Part shown: positions 18,650-61,425 of the stretch, piece by piece
Numbering within the stretch: position 1 is the first letter of the stretch
Layout of the letters: the number at the start of each line of letters is the position of its first letter
NCBI GenBank assembly: GCA_903909605.1
Contig: CAIVWH010000020.1
Span: 1 to 64,000 of the forward strand
Reading direction: 5' to 3'
Source: an uncultured Micrococcales bacterium
GTDB lineage: Bacteria > Actinomycetota > Actinomycetes > Actinomycetales > Microbacteriaceae
DNA length: 64,000 nucleotides
Notes under the pieces: generated by a model
The model's input: only the letters and a program-made list of their open reading frames with translations
Database searches by the model: none
Told to the model about the DNA's origin: nothing
Made by a program: the position numbers and the translations under genes

Positions 18650-18732
18650 TTCGCTTTACCGAATACAAAGCCCGGCCCCAAGAACCCACTTTTTAGTCTT
18701 GATTGTTGGGTATCAGCAATTCATAGGGCGCA

Positions 18733-46571: not shown

Positions 46572-46637
46572 GCCTCTGTGGGCCAGGGCCAGCGAATTGC
46601 CTGGCCTTTGGGTGTTTGCTCGCCTACCCTTTTACTT

Positions 46638-49600
46638 ATGACAAAATGGCGGAAACGTCTGCGCAAGTTCGCGCTGACGAATACGAAGGGCAGCTCGAGC
46701 GCGAGCATGTTCCTCGTCGCCATGCTCGTCTTCGCGCTTTCGGTTTTCGGCATTCAGGGCATTAATGCGCCTGCGGCTCAAGCGGCGGCGGCACAGTGCC
46801 CAGCTGACTCGACTTATGTCACCTACACCTATAGTTCACCGAACTGCACCGCAACTTTTGCATACTCGAACACCTATCAAACCTGGACAGTTCCGGCTGG
46901 TGTCACCTCTGCAACTTTTTCGATCAAAGGCGCTCAAGGTGGGTCCGGTGTTGGTGCTGCAAACGCCGGAGGTGCTGGAGCAGCCGTCACAGGAACCCTC
47001 GCTACGACTCCAGGCCAATCGCTATATGTATATGTAGGTGGAGCTGGATCAAACGGATCTGGTTCAACCGCGCCTATACCTGGAGGGTTTAACGGCGGTG
47101 GCCGTGGAATGTATTGGGGTGGAAGTGCTGGCGGTGGCGGTGGCGGTGGCGCTAGCGACATTCGCACGACCGTCGGCGACTACACAACGCGCCTCGTAGT
47201 TGCTGGTGGTGGCGGTGGAGGAACCGGTTACTCCGGCGGGGGTAACGGTGGTGCTGCGGGAAATCCAAGTGCGCCTAACGCTACTTCGGGTGGTTACACC
47301 TCGACAGGGGCAACTCAGTCTGGACCGGTGGCGGCAAGCGGTTATAGTACAGCGAGTTCACTTGGTCAGGGTTCTGACACGAACTTCGGTGTTTGCAGTT
47401 TGGGAAGTTCTACAACAGGTTGTCCAGCTGGCGGAGGCGGCGGCGGTTACTACGGCGGTGGCGCAGGTGTAACGGTTGGCGCAGGTGGCTCATCCTGGTA
47501 TGACTCAACGAAAGTATCTTCGGCTGCGTATGGCACATCGAACAACACCGGCAATGGTGTTGTCACGATCACCTACATTGCTGGTCCAACGGTTTCAACT
47601 TTCAACGCGACGAACGCGACAGCGACGAACAACGGCTACATCAGCGGCACGACCCTGACCTACACCATCAACTGGACCATGCCGGTGACCGGCTTTACCG
47701 CCTCGGCAATCACGTTGAGCGGCACGAGCGGCGGCTCAGGCACCTGGTCTAAAAGCCTTACGGGAAGCGGCGCTGGGCCTTATACGCTAACGGTCAGCAA
47801 CTCTTCGGCGCTTCAGGGAACCGTCATAGTCTCGCTCGATTCATCCCAGGTTCGAGATTCAAATAACAACCCCGGTGTTGGTGGCACCTATACAAACACG
47901 ACAACCATCGACACAATCGCACCAACCATTAGCGCGATCAATTTCAGCTCTGGAAGTGCTTTTCAAACCGCGCAACAGGTTTCGGTCACATTTAGCGAAG
48001 CGGTGCTCGGCGTCAACGCAAACACAATCACCCTTGGTGGCACTGCAGGATCGAACGGAACCTGGTCGAAGTCACTAACTTCTGGAAGCGGCGCTGGGCC
48101 ATACGTCTTCTCGATTGACAACCCCGCCGCAATAAACGGAACCATCACCGCACAGGTTGCAGCAAATGCGATTACAGATCTTGCGCTGAACAACAACGTT
48201 GCTGCCTCGAGCACAATCACCCAAACGCAAACCATGCAGCCGGGTGTGTCACTCGGCACCTTGCCGACCTTCGGTGCCGGCACAATCACGCTTTTGCCGA
48301 ACGCAAACATCTATGACCGCACGAGTGCCGCGAACGGAACACTCGCTGGTCTTCGAGTTTCAATCACCGCGAACTATGTCGCCGGCGACTCGATGACTTT
48401 CACGAACAACAACTCGACGACGTTCGGCACGATTCAAACCGCAACTTCGGCAAGCGGAGTTTTGACCCTGACCTATAGCGGATCGCTGCCAACAATTCCT
48501 CAGTGGCAAGCTGCGCTGCGCGCGGTGAAGTTCGCGACCTCAACTGCAGGAAGCGCTCGCACCATCCAAGTCATTTTGAAACCAACCGACGGCTTCTTGT
48601 ATGACACGATGCACTTCTACCAGTACATCAACAACCAGTACAGCGACGGCAACCTCGCGATCACCGATGCAGCAACTCGCAGTTACATGGGCATGACCGG
48701 TTACCTCGTGACGGTTCGCAGCGCGGCCGAGCAGACCTTCGTCTACAGCACGATTCAGGGTGGCAACAAGGGCACTTGGCTAGGTGCGTCTGACAACGCT
48801 TCGGCGACTAACTGGAAATGGGTCGTAGGTCCAGACAACGGCGTTCAGTTCTCGACTGGTGCGACTGCATACGGCGGCGCTTATACGAACTGGCTTTCAG
48901 GCGAGCCAAACGGCTCGGCGCACTATATCCTGATGACCACCAACGGTGGCTGGGATGACTGCACCGCGTGTACTAGCGGCGTCTATTCTGCGGTTGGCTA
49001 CACCGTCGAATTCGGCGACCAGGTAACCGGTGACTCGAAGGCAACCGCGGTTTTGCAGGCGACCGGCACCTTGGCAATTGATGCCAGCACCCCGGTCTTC
49101 GTATTCGCAACTCCATCGGGTTCGAGCACCTCGAACATCAACACATTCACCATCACCGCCACCACGGGAACGATTGACTGTTCAACAGTCGGCACGACAA
49201 ACGGTGACGATTTCACTTTCACAAATATCAGTTCGATATCTGTGGCGCAAACTTCATCCACGGTTTGCACCATTACGGCAAATAGCGCGATCGCAGGCGG
49301 CGGCTCAGGCACAATCACACTCGCGAAAGCCGGAACCTACAGCGTGCTTGGTCAAAACGGAATCGCCGGAACTCAAGCGGTCACGACGGTTTCGATTTCG
49401 GTGAGCATCCCAGATGTGACACCACCTGTACTCACCTGGACCAACGAAGCAAACTCATATTTGAACGCGAGCACTAACTCGACCGGTGCAACATTCGCAT
49501 TCACACTTAGCGAAGCAGTGCAGGCATTCACAAACTCCGCGTTCGGATTCACCGGCACGCTCTCGTGCACATTGGGAACGCCATCCGGTTCTGGCACCAG

Positions 49601-52600
49601 CTGGTCGATCACGGTGACGAACTGTACCGACGGAACTTCGGGCGGTCTCTACCTCAAAGCCAACTCGATGCGCGACCTCGCGGGCAACTACGCGGCGACC
49701 GTAAACGGAACGCGCACCATTACCGTCGACACGACTCGACCAACTGCATCATTCACAACCAAGCCGGGTTCATATCAGAACACCACCACAGCGCACTACG
49801 TTGTGACTTTCTCTGAGGCAGTCAGCGGCATGACCAGTGGCAAGCTCTCAGTGACAGGTACCAGCTGTTCGATTGCAAACTACGTTGCGACAAGCAGCAC
49901 CGTTTATGAATTCGATGTCACCGGATGTGCCGATGCACAGTCGATCACCGTCACCCTTGCTGCGAACGCGGGCAGCGATGCGGCAGGCAATACAGGCCCC
50001 AGCTCGGCCGTGACCGCGAGCACCACGATCGACCGCGTCGCACCAACCGCTTCGTTCACTACCAAGCCGAGCGCGACCACCAACGCAACCTCTTCGCACT
50101 ACGTCGTTACTTTCAGCAAGGCAGTGTCTGGCGTGACTGCTTCGAGCTTCAACGTTAGCGGCACCGGATGTGCGATTGCTAACTTCACTGCCACGAGCAG
50201 CACCGTATATGCATTTGACGTGACGAGCTGTGCAGACGGAACTACTAGCGTTGTCACCCTGCTTGCAAACAGCGCAACTGACACCGCGAGCAACACCGGC
50301 CCAGCTTCTGCAGTAACGGCGACCACCACCATTGATCGAAGCGCACCAACTGCTTCGTTCACGTCAAAGCCAAGTTCGCCGACCAACTTGTCAACGCTGC
50401 ACTTCATCGTGACTTTCTCGAAGGCTGTCACTGGAATGAGCGCGGCGAAGTTGTCTGTCACAGGCACTTCGTGTGCAATCAGCAACTTCACCGCGACTAG
50501 CACCACGGTTTATGAGTTCGACGTAATTAGTTGTGCGAACGGTGTTACCGCTGTTGTCACTCTCGCTGCAAACGCCGGAACTGACAGCGCTTCAAACACT
50601 GGCCCTGCAACTGCAGTGAGCGTCAGCACGACAATCGATCGAACTTCAGCAACCGCGAGCTTCACCACGAAGCCAGGTGCGACTACCAACGCAACCACTT
50701 CGCACTACGCAGTCACATTCAACAAGGCAGTCACCGGCATTTCTGCCAGCAGCTTCTCGGTGACCGGCACAGCTTGTTCGATCATCAACTTCACTGCAAC
50801 CAGCAGCACGGTTTATGAATTCGATGTCAGCGGATGCGCCGATGCGCAATCGGTCACCGTCACACTTGCCGCCAACGCGGGTACCGATGCCGCCGGAAAC
50901 TCCAGCCCTGCTGCTGCCGTGACTGCAACCACCACGATTGATCGAGTCGCACCGACCGTTTCGTTCACCACTAAGCCAGGCGCAACCACCAACGCATCGG
51001 TGTCGCACTATGTAGTCACCTACAGCAAGGCCGTAACCGGTCTGAGTGCCGCAAGCTTCAGCGTGAGTGGCACTGGATGTGCGATCTCTAACTTCTCAGC
51101 AACCAGCACAACCGTTTATGGCTTTGACGTCAGCGGCTGCGCCGACGGCGTCACGGTAGTTGTAACCGTCTTGGCAAACGGCGCCACCGATGCCGCTGGC
51201 AATACCGGACCAGCCTCGCCGGTGACTGCAACCACCACGATCGACCGCACTGGCCCGACGGCCTCTTTCACCACCAAGCCTGTTTCGCCAACCAACGCGA
51301 CCACACTTCACTATGCCGTGACCTTCTCGAAGGCGGTCACTGGCATGAGCGCGGCCAGGTTGACCGTGACCGGCACCTCGTGTGCAATCACCAACTTCAC
51401 CGCTACCAGCACCACGGTTTATGAATTCGACGTAATCAACTGCGCCAACGGTGCCTCAGTTGTTGTCACGCTTGCCGCAAACGCAGGAACCGACTCGGCC
51501 TCAAACACCGGCCCAAGCGCCGCAATCACTGCCAGCACCACGATCGACCGCTCTGCGGCAAACGCAACTTTCACTACGAAGCCAACTTCGCGAACCAACG
51601 CAACCACACTGCAATATGTGGTGACCTTCAACAAGGCAGTCACGGGCATCACTGCCGGCAGTTTCTCGGTGACCGGCACCGGATGTGCGATTGCTAACTT
51701 CACCGCAACAAGCTCAACGGTCTATGGCTTCGATGTCACCGGATGCAACGACGGCGTCAGCGCAGTGGTCACACTCGCCGCAAACTCAGGCACCGACGCG
51801 GCAGGCAACTTGAGCCCGACCGCCGCGGTGACTGCAACCACCGCAGTCGACCGCACTGCACCATCGGTCGGCTCGTTTACCACCGCCCTGAGCGCACGCA
51901 CCAACGCAACCACACTTACTTATTCATTGGTGTTCTCAGAGCCTTTGGCTGCGGGCACCCTCATCGGCACTGACTTCGTGGTTGGCAACTGCGCGAGCAC
52001 GCCATCGGTTAGCACAAGCGACAACCAGACTTTCTCGATCTCTCTCGCCGGCTGCGCAGCAGGCACCGTAACCCTCAAGCTCTCGGCGGGCACCGTCACC
52101 GACATCGCGGGCAACGGCGGCCCGGCAGCAGCAAGCGCAACCATTAGCCTGACCGTCGACTTCGGCGTGCCAGTTGCCTCGTGGGGCAGTGCTCCAACCA
52201 GCCCGACCAACACCGACAGCACCTGGCAGCTGAACTTCAGCAAGCAGGTCACCGGTTTCACCGCCAGCGACCTGGTCAATGCCGGCACCGCGCAGAACTG
52301 TGTGTTCAGCATCACGGCAATCACCGCCGGATGGCAGTACTCGGTCACGGTCAGCGGCTGCACTGACGGCACTCTCATCCCAGAAATTTCGGACAACTCG
52401 GTGACTGACCTCGCCGGCAACGTTGGCCCAGCCCTGAACCCACAGAGCGCTCGCCAGGCAACAGGCATCGTCATCGACCTGACTGCGCCGATTGCAAGCT
52501 GGAGCACCACGCCTCCGTCACGCTCGCACGGCACCCTTACCTATGTATTGCACTTCAACGAAGCGATCACCACCGCTGCTGGCAACGCCGGTGCGCTTGG

Positions 52601-55600
52601 CAACGATGACTTTGTCTTTAGCGGCAGTGCCATCGGTTGCCAGATTTCGATCACTCCGATTGCGAGCACCAATGACTACACGATCGCGTTGACTTCGTGC
52701 GGCGACGGATCGCTCACGCTTCAGCTGCTCGACAACGCGGTGACCGACATCGTTGGCAACAGCGGACAGCTCGGAATCTTCTCAAGCACCACAATCGACA
52801 ACACTCCGCCACACCTGAACTCGATTTCGACTTCAGCAACTTCGCCAAGCAACGCGACCTTTGTCACTTTCGCAATCACTTTCAGCGAGAGTGTCACCGG
52901 TCTGATGGCAAACAGCGGTGACTTCACCATCAACACATCGGCAAGTTCAACTTCGTGCTCGTTTGGAACTCTCTCGGGCAGTGGTGCGAGCTATAGCCTG
53001 CGACTAAACAACTGCGGCGATGGAGAAACCGTCAGCATCACCGTGAAGGCTGGCGCAGTCAACGACCTCGCCGGCAACGCGCTCGTCACGCCAATGACAT
53101 CTAACTCGGTCACCTTCGACCGCACTGCTGCGGGCGTGACCTACACGGTTCCAGGCACTGCGAGCACGACAGGTGTTGTGACTATCGTCGCCACATTCAG
53201 CGAACCGGTCACCGGCGTCACGTCATCGGTGTTCAGACAAATCGGCTCGGCGACCACCGGAGCAATCACTGTCACTGCGATCAGCTCGACGGTTTATAAC
53301 CTGACCGTCACCGCGGTCAGTTCGGGCACGGTTGCCTTCGTTTTGGATGGCCCGGTCTACGACGCCGCGCAGAACTCTTCGCCTGAAATGGGAATCTCGG
53401 CAACCTCGAGCGCAGCGAGCGTCACCCTCGCCGGCCTGACCGCGAGCTTCACGACCAACCCGAACCCGCTGGTTCGCGTCAACCCGAGCTATGTGATCAC
53501 CTTCTCTCGCCCGGTTACCGGCCTGACCGCCAGCGACTTCGATGTCACCGCTGCTACCCACTGCTCTGTTGCTGTCGTGGCCACTTCGACCACTGTCTAT
53601 ACGGTCAACACCTCTAACTGTGGCGACGGCCTGACCCAGCTAACCCTTCGTTCGAACACCGTGGTCGACAGCGACAACAACCCGAACATCACCATTTATG
53701 CGGGCCTCGTGACCATCGACAAGACCGCCCCAACTGCAACAATCACGCTGCGCGCCGGCTCACTCATTACCGGCAACCACGTCTTCGATGTGGTCTTCAG
53801 CGAGCCGGTCTTCGGCCTTACCTCGCAAGACTTCACCGTGCCTCTGAGTGCAACTGCCAACGGATGCACGATCACCGGCCCTAACGGAACCGGCACTACT
53901 TATACGGTCAACATGACCGGCTGCCAGAACGGAACCTTCGGCCTCGCGCTGGTCTCTGGCTCGATTGCCGATGAAGCCGGAAACGTTGGCCCAGCGTCGT
54001 TGACCTCAAGTGCGATTGCCACCCAGGCTAAGCCTGAGCCCTCGGCGACTGCAGTTGTCGGAACCGTACCGACCACCCTCATAGCAGTAGCGCCATCCAC
54101 GATCTTCTCGATTATCGACAACACCACTCAGCAGGCACTTCTCTCGGCGAAGATTGTCGTTCCACCGCAGGGTGCTGGTTCGGTTGTTGTTGAGACTTCG
54201 CTCACTCAACTCGCACCTACCGACGCAATCTCGATTTCGGCAGACCAAACGGTTGCCGTTGGCGATCAGCTCTCGGTGCGAGTCGAGGCATCGTCGGCAA
54301 TCGCGCAAGACATGGATGCCGTCGGCTTCTTGATGCTCAACGGAAACTGGGAGTACCTCGGTCGCCAGGCGTTCACCGGCAGTTGGGTTTCGTCGTCGCC
54401 AATGGTCTTTGGCGAGGCCGGAACCTACACACTGAAGATTGTTCTCGTTCCGAAAAACACCGTGGTCAACTTCCATGTGATTCAGGCCGCGTTGAGCGCG
54501 AATCTTTATGACCACATAATTCCAAACCTGATCAAGCCAAAGAGTCTAAACATTCTTGGTTTCAAGTCGGCTTCAATCACGGATGCACAAACCAACGTTG
54601 GTTCGCAGCAGATCACGATCAACATCACCGCGCAACTAAACCCTGGTCAGACTGCACCGGTATTGGTGACTCCGGCTCCACCTGCTGCTCCGGCTCCGGC
54701 TGTCACCCCGACTCCGACGCCAACACCAACTCCAACACCTACTCCAACCCCAACTCCGTCGCGCACGCCTACTCCAACCCCGACTCCAAGTCGCACTCCG
54801 AGTGCTACGCCGACTCCAACCCCTTCGGCTAGCCGCACTCCTTCGGCAACCGCGACCCCAACGCCTACTCCTGTTGCGTCGGCCACTCCGACTCCAACTC
54901 CGAGCGCTTCGGCAAGCTCCGCTCCGAGTGCCTCGCCTTCACAGACTGCAGTGATTGCGGCACCTCAGCCGACCACTCCGCCTGCTCCGGCAGCTGTGCT
55001 TGAGCCGATCGCCCTACCTTCTATTCAGCCTGGTGCCCCGGTTGCTAACCCAGCCATCGGTGCGACCGGTGACGACAACGCACCACCTGCTGCCTTTGAT
55101 CCGCTAGCCAGCTCGGCCGGTGTCGTTGCCGCAACCCAGACCGCAACCCAGACGGTTGCCGTGGTCTCGACCGTGGCCGCCGCCGCTGGTGCTGCTGCCG
55201 CGGCAGCCGCAGCGGGAGCCGCCGCAGGTGCTGCAGCCGGAGCCGCCGCTGGCGCTGCCGGTGGAGCAGCAGCTTCGGGCGCTAGTGCAGGCGGCGCGGC
55301 CCCACGCACTTCAAGTTCAGGCGCGTCAGGCGGCAGCTCAGGCGGTTCGGGCTCAGGCTCGGGCGGCGGCTCGAACAATAACTCGGGCGGCGGCAACATC
55401 CAAACACTTGATGTTGATCACGACGACTACGAGGTCGAGGGCGAACACTTCGGCGACCGACTTCGCATTTGGCGTCGCCGCTGGATGCGCCTGCTTGACC
55501 GACCAAGCCACGCGGCAACCGTCGGCCTCTCACGCATCTCGCCGGTCGCATCCAAGATCGTGAACGACGGCGCATACCTGCGTGCAATCTTCGGCACGCT

Positions 55601-56603
55601 CTCGATCGTCCTTCCGGTTATCGGTCTGCTGCTCGGCGCAACCGGTGTCTCGCAGATCACCGACAAGCTGCTGATGCCAAGCTGGCAGCTCATGCTTCTT
55701 ATTGGCGTGCTCGGCGTATTCGATGCCCTCACCGGTGCGGTCGCGACAATCACATTCGCAATCGGTGCACTCGCAACTCACGGCGTGCACGACGCCAACG
55801 AGGTTCGCCTGCTTCTCGGTGTGATGCTCGTCGGCTTCGCGCCTGGCCTGCTCGCAACTGCGTTCCGCAAGATTCGCAAGGAAGCCCACTGGAACATCAG
55901 CTACTGGTGGGATCGCATCGTCGACCTCGCGGTTGTTACGTTCCTCGCCGGCTGGACCATGTCGAGCGTAGTCTCGACCCTGCCTGCACTCGCCGGCCTC
56001 ACCCTGCCAGCAGCGAACCACGTCACCGACTTCGCACTCGCAGCCGCAGCCGCGATGATCATTCGAATCATCATCGAAGAATTCGCATCGCGCTTCTACC
56101 CAGCGCGCCTGAACTACATCAACCCAACCGAAGTTGCGCAGCCGCACACGCTGCAGAAATACATCGCACTCGCGATTCGCCTCGGCCTGTTCATCTTCGT
56201 TTCGGCAGCGCTTATGGGCGACACCTGGCAGACCTGGGTCGGCTCGTTCCTGTTCATCTTGCCGACACTTCTCGGATGGTATTCAGACCGTCTGCCTAAC
56301 TTCCCTGCGCTGTGGAAGTGGTTGCCTGGCGGCATTCCAGGTTTGGCGTTGAGCTTGGTCATCGCATCGACAACGACCGCGCTCGTCGGAAGTTGGTTGG
56401 GCGCGAGCCCAGAGTTGGCTCAGTGGTCTTTCGTACTTCTGCCAATTCCGCTGCTTGTGCTGAGCATCCTAGGTTTGTTCGGTCGCCACGGCGCTGACCC
56501 AGACGAAGACAAGCCTCTGAAAACCGAGAAGTGGCGCTGGATCTACCGCATCGGCGGAATCGTCATGTTGTTCGTAACCCTGCGCCTCGCCGGCATTCTT
56601 TAG
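46638..56603 (+). CDS. Giant surface protein (about 3321 aa): signal region, Gly-rich domain, Ig-like repeats, one CTLD, seven 101-aa repeats, further Ig-like repeats, Thr/Pro stalk, polytopic C-terminal membrane domain
   Basis: Start trimmed to MTKWRKRLRKF with following hydrophobic segment; C-terminus paralogous to the 3381-aa protein. Confidence 0.92.
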   Translation: MTKWRKRLRKFALTNTKGSSSASMFLVAMLVFALSVFGIQGINAPAAQAAAAQCPADSTYVTYTYSSPNCTATFAYSNTYQTWTVPAGVTSATFSIKGAQGGSGVGAANAGGAGAAVTGTLATTPGQSLYVYVGGAGSNGSGSTAPIPGGFNGGGRGMYWGGSAGGGGGGGASDIRTTVGDYTTRLVVAGGGGGGTGYSGGGNGGAAGNPSAPNATSGGYTSTGATQSGPVAASGYSTASSLGQGSDTNFGVCSLGSSTTGCPAGGGGGGYYGGGAGVTVGAGGSSWYDSTKVSSAAYGTSNNTGNGVVTITYIAGPTVSTFNATNATATNNGYISGTTLTYTINWTMPVTGFTASAITLSGTSGGSGTWSKSLTGSGAGPYTLTVSNSSALQGTVIVSLDSSQVRDSNNNPGVGGTYTNTTTIDTIAPTISAINFSSGSAFQTAQQVSVTFSEAVLGVNANTITLGGTAGSNGTWSKSLTSGSGAGPYVFSIDNPAAINGTITAQVAANAITDLALNNNVAASSTITQTQTMQPGVSLGTLPTFGAGTITLLPNANIYDRTSAANGTLAGLRVSITANYVAGDSMTFTNNNSTTFGTIQTATSASGVLTLTYSGSLPTIPQWQAALRAVKFATSTAGSARTIQVILKPTDGFLYDTMHFYQYINNQYSDGNLAITDAATRSYMGMTGYLVTVRSAAEQTFVYSTIQGGNKGTWLGASDNASATNWKWVVGPDNGVQFSTGATAYGGAYTNWLSGEPNGSAHYILMTTNGGWDDCTACTSGVYSAVGYTVEFGDQVTGDSKATAVLQATGTLAIDASTPVFVFATPSGSSTSNINTFTITATTGTIDCSTVGTTNGDDFTFTNISSISVAQTSSTVCTITANSAIAGGGSGTITLAKAGTYSVLGQNGIAGTQAVTTVSISVSIPDVTPPVLTWTNEANSYLNASTNSTGATFAFTLSEAVQAFTNSAFGFTGTLSCTLGTPSGSGTSWSITVTNCTDGTSGGLYLKANSMRDLAGNYAATVNGTRTITVDTTRPTASFTTKPGSYQNTTTAHYVVTFSEAVSGMTSGKLSVTGTSCSIANYVATSSTVYEFDVTGCADAQSITVTLAANAGSDAAGNTGPSSAVTASTTIDRVAPTASFTTKPSATTNATSSHYVVTFSKAVSGVTASSFNVSGTGCAIANFTATSSTVYAFDVTSCADGTTSVVTLLANSATDTASNTGPASAVTATTTIDRSAPTASFTSKPSSPTNLSTLHFIVTFSKAVTGMSAAKLSVTGTSCAISNFTATSTTVYEFDVISCANGVTAVVTLAANAGTDSASNTGPATAVSVSTTIDRTSATASFTTKPGATTNATTSHYAVTFNKAVTGISASSFSVTGTACSIINFTATSSTVYEFDVSGCADAQSVTVTLAANAGTDAAGNSSPAAAVTATTTIDRVAPTVSFTTKPGATTNASVSHYVVTYSKAVTGLSAASFSVSGTGCAISNFSATSTTVYGFDVSGCADGVTVVVTVLANGATDAAGNTGPASPVTATTTIDRTGPTASFTTKPVSPTNATTLHYAVTFSKAVTGMSAARLTVTGTSCAITNFTATSTTVYEFDVINCANGASVVVTLAANAGTDSASNTGPSAAITASTTIDRSAANATFTTKPTSRTNATTLQYVVTFNKAVTGITAGSFSVTGTGCAIANFTATSSTVYGFDVTGCNDGVSAVVTLAANSGTDAAGNLSPTAAVTATTAVDRTAPSVGSFTTALSARTNATTLTYSLVFSEPLAAGTLIGTDFVVGNCASTPSVSTSDNQTFSISLAGCAAGTVTLKLSAGTVTDIAGNGGPAAASATISLTVDFGVPVASWGSAPTSPTNTDSTWQLNFSKQVTGFTASDLVNAGTAQNCVFSITAITAGWQYSVTVSGCTDGTLIPEISDNSVTDLAGNVGPALNPQSARQATGIVIDLTAPIASWSTTPPSRSHGTLTYVLHFNEAITTAAGNAGALGNDDFVFSGSAIGCQISITPIASTNDYTIALTSCGDGSLTLQLLDNAVTDIVGNSGQLGIFSSTTIDNTPPHLNSISTSATSPSNATFVTFAITFSESVTGLMANSGDFTINTSASSTSCSFGTLSGSGASYSLRLNNCGDGETVSITVKAGAVNDLAGNALVTPMTSNSVTFDRTAAGVTYTVPGTASTTGVVTIVATFSEPVTGVTSSVFRQIGSATTGAITVTAISSTVYNLTVTAVSSGTVAFVLDGPVYDAAQNSSPEMGISATSSAASVTLAGLTASFTTNPNPLVRVNPSYVITFSRPVTGLTASDFDVTAATHCSVAVVATSTTVYTVNTSNCGDGLTQLTLRSNTVVDSDNNPNITIYAGLVTIDKTAPTATITLRAGSLITGNHVFDVVFSEPVFGLTSQDFTVPLSATANGCTITGPNGTGTTYTVNMTGCQNGTFGLALVSGSIADEAGNVGPASLTSSAIATQAKPEPSATAVVGTVPTTLIAVAPSTIFSIIDNTTQQALLSAKIVVPPQGAGSVVVETSLTQLAPTDAISISADQTVAVGDQLSVRVEASSAIAQDMDAVGFLMLNGNWEYLGRQAFTGSWVSSSPMVFGEAGTYTLKIVLVPKNTVVNFHVIQAALSANLYDHIIPNLIKPKSLNILGFKSASITDAQTNVGSQQITINITAQLNPGQTAPVLVTPAPPAAPAPAVTPTPTPTPTPTPTPTPTPSRTPTPTPTPSRTPSATPTPTPSASRTPSATATPTPTPVASATPTPTPSASASSAPSASPSQTAVIAAPQPTTPPAPAAVLEPIALPSIQPGAPVANPAIGATGDDNAPPAAFDPLASSAGVVAATQTATQTVAVVSTVAAAAGAAAAAAAAGAAAGAAAGAAAGAAGGAAASGASAGGAAPRTSSSGASGGSSGGSGSGSGGGSNNNSGGGNIQTLDVDHDDYEVEGEHFGDRLRIWRRRWMRLLDRPSHAATVGLSRISPVASKIVNDGAYLRAIFGTLSIVLPVIGLLLGATGVSQITDKLLMPSWQLMLLIGVLGVFDALTGAVATITFAIGALATHGVHDANEVRLLLGVMLVGFAPGLLATAFRKIRKEAHWNISYWWDRIVDLAVVTFLAGWTMSSVVSTLPALAGLTLPAANHVTDFALAAAAAMIIRIIIEEFASRFYPARLNYINPTEVAQPHTLQKYIALAIRLGLFIFVSAALMGDTWQTWVGSFLFILPTLLGWYSDRLPNFPALWKWLPGGIPGLALSLVIASTTTALVGSWLGASPELAQWSFVLLPIPLLVLSILGLFGRHGADPDEDKPLKTEKWRWIYRIGGIVMLFVTLRLAGIL
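48595..49020 (+). other. CTLD with EPN and WDD motifs
   Basis: MHFYQYINNQYSDGNLAITDAATRSYMGMTGYLVTVRSAAEQTFV...GTWLGASDNASATNWKWVVGPDNG...WLSGEPNGSAHYILMTTNGGWDDC...GYTVEFG. Confidence 0.85.
49728..51848 (+). repeat. Seven tandem repeats of exactly 303 bp (101 codons), Ig-like
   Basis: Asp codon of the D(R/T)xxPTASFTTKP motif at 49728, 50031, 50334, 50637, 50940, 51243, 51546 and the next unit at 51849. Confidence 0.93.
54702..54945 (+). repeat. Low-complexity Thr/Pro/Ser stalk-coding repeat
   Basis: [50 protein letters not shown]. Confidence 0.9.
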
Positions 56604-56648: not shown

Positions 56649-57245
56649 ATGCGCAAATTTCTGGCAATTGCCGCCGCTGCAGCAGCAGTAATCGGCATCA
56701 CCACCGCAACCGTCGCTCCGGCCCAGGCCGCATCGACCCCAACCATTCTCACTGTGAGCAACAAGAACCCATTGCCAGCAGGCGGTCAGAACGAAATTCT
56801 TACCGGCACCAACCTGAACTTGGTCACCGCAGTAATCGTCGACAAGACCGCGGCCCAGATTGTTAGCCAAACCGCAACCAAACTGGTCTTCATCATTCCT
56901 GCTCACGCAGCTGGTCGCGTCGGTTTCACTCTCTATTACAGCGGCAAGAAGCTCGCCTACCCAGACAGCCTGGTTTACAAGGCCGGCCCAACCCGCGCAC
57001 TAGCACCACTTCCTTACATCCCAGACACTCTGAAGGTCGGCGCGAGCTTCTCGATGGTTCCAGGAGACCCGAAGTGGGCAACCAGCGTGCTTAGCCTTAC
57101 GCCGCTGACTTGCAGCGTTGACAGCGCCTTGACCGTGAAGGGCCTAAAGAAGGGCACCTGCCAGCTGCAGATCAGCATCGTTCTCGACACCATGGACCCG
57201 ACATACCGTGGCCGCGACGCGATGTATGACCTGACCGTCAACTAA
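56649..57245 (+). CDS. Small secreted protein with IPT/TIG-like beta domain (198 aa)
   Basis: Signal peptide MRKFLAIAAAAAAVIGITTATVAPAQAAS; NEILTGTNLNLVTAVIVDKTAAQIVSQTATKLVFIIPAHAAGRVGFTLYY. Confidence 0.75.
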   Translation: MRKFLAIAAAAAAVIGITTATVAPAQAASTPTILTVSNKNPLPAGGQNEILTGTNLNLVTAVIVDKTAAQIVSQTATKLVFIIPAHAAGRVGFTLYYSGKKLAYPDSLVYKAGPTRALAPLPYIPDTLKVGASFSMVPGDPKWATSVLSLTPLTCSVDSALTVKGLKKGTCQLQISIVLDTMDPTYRGRDAMYDLTVN

Positions 57246-57295: not shown

Positions 57296-57397
57296 TTCCG
57301 TAATAAAAGCGTGGCTTCCCCGTATACCTAGATATCTGCCAATATTGGGGCAGAGGGCGTTTGTTAGCCCATCCCAGCGCAATCGAAAGGTGAAACC

Positions 57398-58822
57398 ATG
57401 GCCAAGCCAAAGCGTCACCTTCGCGCAGTCGGCGACAATCTGAACGCCGCCGAGATTCGCCCGGATGAGGTCAGCCTCGACACCACAGTTTTTAACGCGA
57501 TTCCAGAAGACGACGAACTCGACGCCATGCTCGACGAAGTCAGCGACGAAGAGTTCGGCCAGGTCGAACTAAAAGACGCAAAGCCGGTCAAGCTCAAGGA
57601 GTGGAAGGCCGAAGAGTTCGCGAGCATTTACATTCGCTTCCGCCCGCACCTCGAGCGTCACGCGCGAAAGTTCTTGACCAACCGTTCGCAGATCGACGAA
57701 GTCGTTCAAGACGCATTCCTCTACCTCATGGTTTCGCTTCCTGAACTCGACAGCGAGATCGGCGTGCTTCGCTTCCTTAAGTGGAAGGTCAAGAATCTCT
57801 GCATCGATGTTTATCGTGCACAGGGTCGCGCATACGTCAACAACATCGACGACATCGCAGAACCAGCATCACTCGATGCCGAAGTTGGTTCGCACCTCGA
57901 GCAGGCCGACGATGCAGCAATCGTGAAACTCGCGATGTCAAAACTCAATCCACGCCACCGCGAAGTTTTGGTCGCATCGATCTACGAAGAAAAGTCGACC
58001 GCAGAAATTGCAGCGCAGGTTGGCCTCAGCGAAAACGCAACGCTGCAGCTTCTCTACCGCGCTCGCGGTGCATTCAAGAAGGCGCTGCTCGGCGATGTCG
58101 ACACCGATGGAATGTCGATGGCCGCAATTCTTTCAGTCGCCGCTCGCAAGGCTGGCGAAGAAGCAAAGAAGTATGGCGTGCAGGCGATGGTGTTGGTTTT
58201 GTTCCTCGCCCTCGGCGTTGGTGCACTGTTTAACTTCAACCGCGGTTCGCAGGCGCACACCGTTGCATCGCAAACTCAGCAAACCACCAAGCCGGTTGTT
58301 CCAAGCACTTCGCAGCCTGACGGCAATGTCACTGCAAACAAACCCGCGGCGAACGGCACCGTAACCGCGAACACTGCGGCCAAGGTTGTCAAAGAGGTTC
58401 CTCAGGTTGAAGACTTCTACCAGCTCAACCCAATCAAGGCGGCTACCGCCTCGACTATCGCCAGCGCCAACTCGCGCACCGACATCACGGTCTACCGCTC
58501 GAGCAAGACCGATGCCACCCAATACGCCATCCAGGGCGAGGATGGCCTAACCGCCAGCTTCAGTTTCGTGAACGGCACCATCACAAACCTGATCTTCCGC
58601 GTGAACGCCGATGGCATTGCCTACAGTGCCTTTGGCATGAACATCCAGGTTCAAAGCCTCGGGGCCGGCCAGTTCGCCGTCGTGGGCACCATGAGCGACC
58701 TGATCGACCTGAACAACCTGGTTTACACGGGCAATGCGCTCTCAAAGGCCTCATTTGCCCTGAATATGACCCTCACCGATGGCGCCAGCACAGGCAACCT
58801 GATCCTTCAGGCCAGCAACTAG
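57398..58822 (+). CDS. Sigma-70/ECF-like sigma factor fused to a TM helix and extracytoplasmic C-terminal domain (474 aa)
   Basis: Region 2-like IYIRFRPHLERHARKFLTNRSQIDEVVQDAFLYLM; region 4-like LNPRHREVLVASIYEEKSTAEIAAQVGLSENATLQLLYRARGAFKKAL; TM AMVLVLFLALGVGALF; then Thr/Gln/Pro linker and about 140-aa domain. Confidence 0.85.
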   Translation: MAKPKRHLRAVGDNLNAAEIRPDEVSLDTTVFNAIPEDDELDAMLDEVSDEEFGQVELKDAKPVKLKEWKAEEFASIYIRFRPHLERHARKFLTNRSQIDEVVQDAFLYLMVSLPELDSEIGVLRFLKWKVKNLCIDVYRAQGRAYVNNIDDIAEPASLDAEVGSHLEQADDAAIVKLAMSKLNPRHREVLVASIYEEKSTAEIAAQVGLSENATLQLLYRARGAFKKALLGDVDTDGMSMAAILSVAARKAGEEAKKYGVQAMVLVLFLALGVGALFNFNRGSQAHTVASQTQQTTKPVVPSTSQPDGNVTANKPAANGTVTANTAAKVVKEVPQVEDFYQLNPIKAATASTIASANSRTDITVYRSSKTDATQYAIQGEDGLTASFSFVNGTITNLIFRVNADGIAYSAFGMNIQVQSLGAGQFAVVGTMSDLIDLNNLVYTGNALSKASFALNMTLTDGASTGNLILQASN

Positions 58823-58853: not shown

Positions 58854-58924
58854 AAATCTTTGAAAAAAGATCGCTCGAGACCGTAATAAACCGTCTGAAA
58901 CCTCGTTACTAAAGGTATAAGCCC

Positions 58925-58953: not shown

Positions 58954-59019
58954 CTAAGAGCTTGTGCCCGCTAAATCATTGGGATCTAGCGGACAAACCA
59001 AGAAAAAACAAAGGAAATC

Positions 59020-61425
59020 ATGTCAAAGAACTTGTTCCGTAAGGGACTCGCGACTGGCGCCATTGTTGCTCTTTCGGCTGCTGCTCTGTCAGCTGCCCCA
59101 GCATTCGCTGCTGGCGAGATCAACGTTGCTCCATCGTTGGGTACCTCTTACAACATTCCGGTGACTGACACCTTCAACCTGTTGACCACCTTCGCTCCTG
59201 GATACACTCCTTCGAGCTACTCACAGTTGAAGTACGCAGTTACCACTGACGGTGTTGCATCAATCGACGCTCTTGCTGGAACTTCAGCACAGGCGCCTGC
59301 AACCACCACCAACTTGCTCAGCACAACCTCGGCTAACAGCTACACCGCTGTTTTGACCGCGACTAGCGCTTCGGCAGTGACCCAGAACTACCTGGGCCTC
59401 AAGGTAGACGGTTCGACCACCGCTTCGACCACTTCGACCACCGTTAGCGTCACCGCATTCGTTGACGCAAACAACGATGGCGCAGTATCGGCTGGCGAGT
59501 GGGCAACCACCAAGACCGTTACTTTCAAGAAGTACTCGGAAATCGTTCCTACCCTCACCCTGACTCAGCCTGCTGCTGGTGACGTCACCGCAAAGGCAAC
59601 CGTTAGCTACGGCGACTTGAACACTCAGGAGCTCACCGCTACTGACTTCAAGGTTGTCTTTACTGGCGCAACCGGTGTTACCGCTGGTGGTGTCACTGCA
59701 ACTAGCGGTGTTTACACTCAGAGCGGTCTGACTGCGTTGACCACCGAAACTGTTTCGGCTCAGGCTTCGTACAAGGGCACTCTGATGGGTTCGGCTGTTT
59801 CGGCAACCACCACTGCGCGTTCGATCACGGCTCTTGCAACCACTGGTGCAACCCTGACCGCTTCGGCTGATGCAAAGACCATTTCGAGCACCAACTACGC
59901 CCGCACCAACAAGGCGTTCACTGTTGCTCAGCTGGTAAAGGACACCGCTTCGACTCCTGCTGTTGCAGCTGGCGTTGCAGTGACCGCAACTGTTACAACT
60001 AGCGCAACCGTAAGCACTTCGAAGTACCTGACCATCAACGGCCAGAACCTGACCACCTCAGCTTTGGTGAGCGCGTTCTCGGCATCGTTGACTTCAGACG
60101 CTAGCGGTCTTGCTTCGCTTACCGTAACCCCAGTTGGTTACGCAGCTGGCGACACCGTTACCGTAACCTTCGCATCGCAGAACTACACCAACAGCATCGT
60201 TGTTACCGAGGCAAGCGCAAGCTACAGCATCGCTACCACCGACGTTCTTGGTTCGTCTTCGCGCAAGGCTGCTCACGGTGCAACCACCGTTATCAACTAC
60301 TCGGTAACTGACCAGTTCGGCCAGGCAATCTCGGGCACCTACCGCTTGAACGCAACCGTTTCGGGCACCGGCTTCAGCAACTTCAACGTTTACACCCCTG
60401 TAACCGCTGGCGCAGCTGCACAGTCGATCACCGACCCATCAACCTCGACTGGTGCAACCACTACCGTTGCAAACCTTCTTGAGGTTCAGGGAACTGACGG
60501 CAACTGGTCAAGCGCAACCGCGACCAAGACTGTAACCATCAACAACTCGAGCGCAGCTGGTGCCTACTACAGCGCTGGCACCACTCCAGCGGCAACCTAC
60601 ACCGGAACTGTTTCGACTGACTCGGCATACACGGCTGGCGGCAACGCACCTGTAAGCATCTCGGTCCAGGCAGCTGTTGCAGGTTCGTCGGTCACGCTTG
60701 CTGGAACTGGTCTCGGCTTCGAGCTCAACAGCAAGATCTACACCGACAGCGTGTCGTTCCTCGACAACGGTTCAGCTCAGACTGTCAAGGTCTACAGCTT
60801 CACCTCGGGCGCACAGACTGTAACCACCACCGTTGACGGTGTTGCAAGCAAGTCAAGCGTTATCACTTACGCAGCTGCAGCTCCTGCAAACGTCGCGATC
60901 ACCCTTCCTGCTAACGCACAGGCTGGTCAGGCAATGGATGTTGTGTTCTCGGTTACCGACGTACACGGCAACGCAGCAGCAGCAGTAACCACCAGCGGTT
61001 CGAACGACGGTCACCTCGTGATCTCGGCGACCGGTGCCGGTTACCTCTCGACCACTGGTGCAGTAGCAACCGGCTCGAAGGGTACCTACACTGCTAAGTT
61101 GATCACCGGTGCAGCCGACCTCGGAACCACCTACATCAACGCAACCATCGACTTGGCAACCGACGTAACCGTCGCGAAGTCAATCGAGTTCGGTCTAACC
61201 GATGCAGACGTAGTATCTGGCGGACACCGCGTGTTCGTTGACTACTCGTTCGCAAAGGGCAAGACCCTTACCATCACCATCGATGGCAAGCGCGCTTACA
61301 GCCAGGTCGTCGCTAGCGACGTCGCAGGCGAGCTCGCATTCACCCAGAAGAAAAAGGGCGCTCACACCGTGACCGTTCGCATCTCGGGTGGAATTGTCTT
61401 CACTGAGAAGGTAAGCACCAACTAA
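59020..61425 (+). CDS. Secreted S-layer-like protein (801 aa)
   Basis: Signal peptide MSKNLFRKGLATGAIVALSAAALSAAPAFAA; Ser/Thr/Ala-rich beta-domain protein; own promoter-like region and strong terminator. Confidence 0.75.
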   Translation: MSKNLFRKGLATGAIVALSAAALSAAPAFAAGEINVAPSLGTSYNIPVTDTFNLLTTFAPGYTPSSYSQLKYAVTTDGVASIDALAGTSAQAPATTTNLLSTTSANSYTAVLTATSASAVTQNYLGLKVDGSTTASTTSTTVSVTAFVDANNDGAVSAGEWATTKTVTFKKYSEIVPTLTLTQPAAGDVTAKATVSYGDLNTQELTATDFKVVFTGATGVTAGGVTATSGVYTQSGLTALTTETVSAQASYKGTLMGSAVSATTTARSITALATTGATLTASADAKTISSTNYARTNKAFTVAQLVKDTASTPAVAAGVAVTATVTTSATVSTSKYLTINGQNLTTSALVSAFSASLTSDASGLASLTVTPVGYAAGDTVTVTFASQNYTNSIVVTEASASYSIATTDVLGSSSRKAAHGATTVINYSVTDQFGQAISGTYRLNATVSGTGFSNFNVYTPVTAGAAAQSITDPSTSTGATTTVANLLEVQGTDGNWSSATATKTVTINNSSAAGAYYSAGTTPAATYTGTVSTDSAYTAGGNAPVSISVQAAVAGSSVTLAGTGLGFELNSKIYTDSVSFLDNGSAQTVKVYSFTSGAQTVTTTVDGVASKSSVITYAAAAPANVAITLPANAQAGQAMDVVFSVTDVHGNAAAAVTTSGSNDGHLVISATGAGYLSTTGAVATGSKGTYTAKLITGAADLGTTYINATIDLATDVTVAKSIEFGLTDADVVSGGHRVFVDYSFAKGKTLTITIDGKRAYSQVVASDVAGELAFTQKKKGAHTVTVRISGGIVFTEKVSTN

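Follow-up and report, generated by a model that had tools for sequence, protein, structure and literature searches.

We found that an ORF in a 64,000-nucleotide stretch of DNA from an uncultured Micrococcales bacterium (hereafter the window) encodes an ECF sigma factor that is itself anchored in the cell membrane, and that appears to switch on its own gene and the gene for a neighbouring, probably abundant, surface protein. The sigma domains are joined through a strongly conserved juxtamembrane segment to a single transmembrane (TM) helix, a variable linker and an exported domain with a predicted compact fold. Neither an anti-sigma domain nor a neighbouring anti-sigma gene was found. The pairing recurs in two major groups of small-genome lake bacteria, probably Rhodoluna and acI, the first of which has a cultured, genetically workable member. 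The features discussed here are collected in Table 1.

Table 1. Positions of the fused sigma factor gene, its parts and the neighbouring elements in the window
Position	Strand	Feature	Support
46578-56603		Giant adhesin gene	No motif upstream
56649-57245		Secreted TIG-domain protein gene, 198 aa	Second strongest codon bias of the window ORFs scored; no sigma motif before it
57298-57325	+	ECF-type promoter of the sigma gene, CCGTAATAA-N14-CGTAT (probable autoregulation)	Same element before the sigma gene in about 20 genomes; leave-one-out weight matrix 23.9 bits
57398-58822	+	Fused membrane-tethered ECF sigma factor gene, 474 aa	Pfam, NCBIfam, structure comparison, orthologs
57629-57829	+	Sigma region 2 (residues 78-144)	Pfam PF04542, E 9e-10
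57923-58066	+	Sigma region 4 (residues 176-223)	Pfam PF08281, E 3e-9
58091-58177	+	Conserved juxtamembrane segment (residues 232-260, GMS..AILSVAARKA), candidate self-inhibitory or positioning element	Conservation and dN/dS; counterpart in acI
58175-58231	+	Single TM helix (residues about 260-278)	Mean Kyte-Doolittle 2.32
58238-58426	+	Variable low-complexity linker (residues 281-343)	pLDDT below 50 over residues 275-344; low conservation
58427-58819	+	Exported domain (residues 344-474), predicted one helix plus eight strands, candidate sensor	AlphaFold pLDDT 88.8, pTM 0.80
58881-58908	+	ECF-type promoter of the surface-protein gene, CCGTAATAA-N14-CGTTA	Exact pattern expected 0.01 times in the window by shuffling; weight matrix 23.5 bits
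58914-59002	+	Structured leader RNA: hairpin P1 (58914-58968, loop UGCUUGGUU), hairpin P2 (58969-58991), tail AACCAAG (58996-59002) complementary to the P1 loop	27 leaders in two genera; P2 covariation; no Rfam match
59020-61425	+	Inferred target: secreted S-layer-like surface protein gene, 801 aa	Lowest effective codon number of 37 window ORFs; no Cys, pI 5.1; next gene in most relatives

Architecture and distribution of the fused sigma factor

In the initial annotation, the ORF had been read as a membrane-tethered sigma factor with sigma region 2- and 4-like segments, one TM helix, a secreted-type C-terminal domain and no visible separate anti-sigma gene, and this observation is confirmed. 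To examine the sigma portion, whose absence had been named as a refuting outcome, we searched Pfam and NCBIfam. Regions 2 and 4, and no other sigma region, were detected, both above the Pfam cut-offs, and the ECF superfamily model TIGR02937 matched with an E value of 2.5e-22. A Foldseek comparison returned ECF sigma structures such as SigL and SigH. The only hydrophobic segment of the protein covers the helix proposed initially, AMVLVLFLALGVGALF. Only about 30 residues lie between sigma region 4 and the TM helix, no zinc-finger domain (PF13490) was found there by Pfam at E 0.1, and the whole protein contains a single Cys, at position 135; hence there is no zinc anti-sigma domain. Pfam likewise gave no SnoaL-like or TPR C-terminal domain as found in ECF41, ECF42 and ECF56. 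The model of the whole protein was poor overall (pLDDT 59.8) and we therefore claim no docking of the juxtamembrane segment on the sigma domain.

The exported domain alone was predicted with confidence as a compact alpha+beta fold, but its best PDB match was not significant (E 0.07), a sequence profile search gave nothing, and Pfam gave no hit for the window domain and no consistent family among the 25 homologous domains. No carbohydrate-binding module was shared by these domains; one relative gave NPCBM at E 0.06 only. The possibility that the ectodomain is a copy of a surface-protein domain was rejected because no profile match was obtained.

The full fused protein occurs in 18 of 67 genomes of the genus, which is probably Rhodoluna, and in two other small-genome genera of the family, altogether in about 25 genomes of three genera. 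One carrier, G006 (G and L numbers denote genomes and loci of relatives), is inferred to be the genome of R. lacicola MWH-Ta8 (1,430,433 bp; PMC4156110), a species that is naturally transformable with working gene inactivation (PMC11577799). Absence from many genomes may partly reflect incomplete draft assemblies, as the four single-contig genomes identified in the genus (G006, G017, G059, G062) all carry the gene, although G080 (99% complete, about 20 contigs) does not. Moreover, draft assemblies often break just after the sigma gene, at or near the surface gene (contig ends of G084, G722, G825, G831 and G683), which may hide the system. Across 25 proteins, the mean majority-residue frequency was 0.81 for sigma region 2, 0.85 for sigma region 4, 0.75 for the juxtamembrane segment, 0.30 for the linker and 0.35 for the exported domain. 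In comparison with three relatives, dN/dS was 0.02-0.11 for the sigma regions, indicating strong purifying selection, 0.04-0.15 for the juxtamembrane segment and 0.21-0.77 for the exported domain. The juxtamembrane segment is thus kept nearly as strictly as the sigma domains.

In the next step, a class-wide profile search revealed the same sigma-juxtamembrane-TM core in a second family of small genomes, which is taken as Nanopelagicaceae (probable acI; published acI strains include IMCC26077, 1.552 Mb, and IMCC19121, 1.506 Mb; PMC5301498). There, 58 of 108 good genomes carry it. Profile comparison aligned 221 columns from the N-terminal extension through the TM helix at 33% identity (E 2e-34) and stopped at this point; the ectodomains are not detectably related. 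The next gene is again a large secreted protein in most loci. A third family has weaker matches, with a large secreted protein downstream in at least one locus.

A promoter element shared with the surface-protein gene

The initial annotation placed the gene between a giant adhesin gene and an S-layer-like gene. This requires one correction, as the giant gene is not the direct neighbour: the TIG-domain gene lies between it and the sigma gene. The gene directly downstream of the sigma gene, on the same strand, belongs to the family of the window's S-layer-like protein in most loci, whereas in G003, G024 and G060 it is a different secreted protein. Other neighbours vary between genomes, and no constant anti-sigma-like neighbour was seen in relatives. 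The window surface protein is rich in Thr, Ala, Ser and Val and its gene has the strongest codon bias of the ORFs scored, which is consistent with an abundant surface protein, while its formation of an S-layer remains a supposition.

Upstream of both the sigma gene and the surface gene lies the same bipartite element, CCGTAAYRA-N14-CGTWA, across about 20 genomes of two genera, the sigma copy in the window ending in CGTAT. The AAY core is 16 nt from CGT, as is usual for ECF promoters. In the 1.34-Mb genome, the pattern with CGTWW occurs exactly twice, at these two places. A weight matrix trained only on sigma-gene promoters of other species recovered both window sites, the next window site scoring 11.6 bits. 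Over the genus, N14 hits in sigma-positive genomes fall at the sigma or surface gene, save one near a contig end. As a background control, spacings of N13 and N15 gave eleven scattered hits, none of them at the sigma locus. Two sister-genus genomes (G337, G243) lack a recognisable motif before the sigma gene.

To test co-distribution, we searched with a promoter profile, which hit all 14 sigma-positive genomes and none of the ten sigma-negative genomes examined. The profile was built from locus sequences, so that positive hits there are partly circular; this does not apply to the negative genomes, the specificity or G182. In this last genome the surface gene lies about 78 kb away, and the only off-locus hit, which was not in the training set, is located 137 nt upstream of that gene. 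It is the only Rhodoluna relative that tests the promoter off-locus. In G059 the profile also hits on the other strand, upstream of a 411-aa gene without an assigned function, and motif-like sites facing away from the sigma gene (L097 near 9397, minus strand; L039 near 7439; L045 near 8977) precede a conserved protein of about 400-440 aa without a Pfam family.

The proposal of the initial annotation, that the protein may sense the envelope and control surface-protein expression, is partly supported by these results. The promoter motif links the tethered sigma factor to the S-layer-like gene and to itself, but control of the giant adhesins is not supported: neither of the upstream regions proposed as promoters (18650-18732 and 46572-46637) carries the motif, and no motif lies upstream of 11450, 18733 or 46578. 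Sensing of the envelope by the exported domain is plausible but rests on inference alone.

Proposed mechanism and comparison with related sigma factors

We consider it most likely, with a rough probability of 0.7, that the protein is a one-piece transmembrane signalling device. In this view, the sigma factor is held inactive at the membrane by its own C-terminal extension, made up of the conserved juxtamembrane segment, the TM helix, a disordered linker and the exported domain as sensor, and an envelope signal read by the exported domain would lead to cleavage near or in the TM helix by a site-1 protease and then by the cell's site-2 protease. The freed sigma domain would bind RNA polymerase and recognise CCGTAAYRA-N14-CGTWA, turning on its own gene in a positive feedback as well as the neighbouring major surface-protein gene. 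The sequence analysis itself establishes the architecture and its conservation, the two-site promoter set, its co-distribution with the sigma gene and the linkage to the surface gene. In the absence of binding, expression or cleavage data, the remainder is inferred: strongly for the use of these promoters by this sigma factor and for positive autoregulation, moderately for inhibition by tethering and proteolytic release, which rest on analogy with IutY (PMC8999054) and the model for ECF52 (PMC5826349), and weakly for sensing by the exported domain, whose fast evolution and replacement in acI would fit a sensor of variable surface material. The nature of the signal is likewise inferred. The window genome and G006 each have three sigma70-family proteins and one M50 site-2 protease, although a single such protease is near-universal and hence weak evidence for release. 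The only other ECF sigma factor of the window genome has beside it a small Cys-containing protein that, as read from the sequence, looks like a zinc anti-sigma factor.

Other explanations appear unlikely. The sigma factor could work while still tethered, a conformational change of the ectodomain causing the membrane-held sigma to recruit polymerase to the membrane so that the surface protein is transcribed, translated and exported in one place, without proteolysis. The absence of a recognisable anti-sigma domain to remove, the strict conservation of the juxtamembrane segment, as might be expected of a positioning element, and the secreted nature of the main target would fit this idea; however, no precedent among ECF sigma factors, nor any such term in use, was found in the literature searched, and the characterised fused case, IutY, is released by proteolysis (PMC8999054). 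Less likely still, the shared motif could be used by the other ECF sigma factor or by an activator, while the fused sigma has a different regulon. Sigma-promoter pairing is indeed inferred from co-occurrence and linkage only, and a LuxR-type (GerE) regulator of about 240 aa, not present in the window, sits on the opposite strand between two surface-protein genes in several relatives (L039:6495-7241, L040:13312-14019, L112:13231-13938). On the other hand, the motif has the form of an ECF promoter, precedes the sigma gene itself and is absent from the ten sigma-negative genomes, several of which (G012 and others) do contain another ECF-like hit of about 245 aa. Least likely is control by a separate anti-sigma protein encoded elsewhere, with the extension serving only as an anchor. 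Such a protein has some room only because orphan anti-sigma proteins were not sought exhaustively in the genome, and the variable neighbourhood, except for the surface gene, and the conservation of the extension across families speak against it.

Fused TM sigma factors are already known in Actinobacteria. ECF52 sigma factors such as SCO4117 of Streptomyces coelicolor (PMC5826349) also have an ECF sigma fused to a TM region, a low-complexity exported linker and an exported domain, with evidence for positive autoregulation and a proposed proteolytic release, but they carry a zinc-finger (anti-sigma-like) domain before the TM region and a carbohydrate-binding module, neither of which was found here, where one TM helix, a domain without known fold match and a target set of about two promoters are seen. 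The ECF48 and ECF53 groups are described as holding a zinc-finger domain and one or two TM helices (PMC8999054), and the zinc domain is missing here. Because it lacks this defining domain we do not file the protein as ECF48, ECF52 or ECF53, but it probably works like them. IutY of Pseudomonas putida (ECF243; PMC8999054) likewise combines sigma factor and membrane-spanning regulator in one polypeptide, with a working model of release by a periplasmic protease and RseP; it carries, however, a fused anti-sigma portion and answers to an outer-membrane siderophore receptor, none of which is seen here. Sigma-BldN of Streptomyces is an ECF sigma factor governing abundant surface proteins (chaplins, rodlins), but has a separate anti-sigma, RsbN (cited in PMC5826349).

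A further-reaching reading remains possible but tentative. The protein may represent a previously unrecognised class of tethered sigma factor without an anti-sigma domain, in which the juxtamembrane segment itself inhibits or positions the sigma domain and an exchangeable exported domain monitors the surface layer, acting as a dedicated homeostat for the major surface protein in dominant streamlined freshwater Actinobacteria (Rhodoluna and acI), backed in Rhodoluna and its sister genus by a new structured leader RNA. Streamlined lake Actinobacteria have very few regulators, and one of the three sigma70-family proteins of this genome appears devoted to a surface protein. If our interpretation is right, this is a minimal sensor-to-promoter circuit in one polypeptide and a clean case for asking how a sigma factor is held inactive without an anti-sigma domain. 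It also gives a testable handle on how abundant freshwater bacteria manage the surface that phages and grazers meet.

Leader RNA and further upstream elements

Twenty-seven surface-gene leaders of two genera, including those in L039, L040, L112 and L177, share hairpin P1 with UGCUUGGUU in its loop, hairpin P2 and the loop-complementary tail AACCAAG just before the ribosome site, and the predicted start site puts P1 at the 5' end of the message. P2 is paired in 7 to 10 of 10 positions, mostly 9 or 10 (shuffles about 7.3), with up to six pair types per position among 22 distinct sequences. The loop-tail complementarity almost never varies and so is not supported by covariation. RNAalifold on the plain MAFFT alignment recovered only this invariant seven-pair helix, since the variable stems were not aligned by structure. 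A role of the leader in message stability or translation control is a guess. A second surface-protein gene in some relatives (L039:3589-6444, L040:14283-17219, L046:2630-5557) has the same leader type but a variant promoter (CCGTGAY..., -10 near GTTA) without an assigned user. Several relatives' surface promoters, for example in L039, L046 and L099, contain the inverted repeat GTCCGGAC in the spacer, a possible operator for another regulator.

At the acI loci the Rhodoluna-type motif was essentially not found, so that recognition or operon layout has diverged. The gap before the surface gene is short there, and co-transcription is therefore possible. Between sigma gene and surface gene (L235, L229, L241), acI loci have a different conserved leader with several apparent inverted repeats, and no Rfam match apart from a tRNA was obtained in L235, L240 or L230. 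Upstream of the acI sigma genes (L229-L261), two kinds of conserved block were observed, GTCCGTTTTGTCC...CGTAG and CAACATTT...GTGTCTTA.
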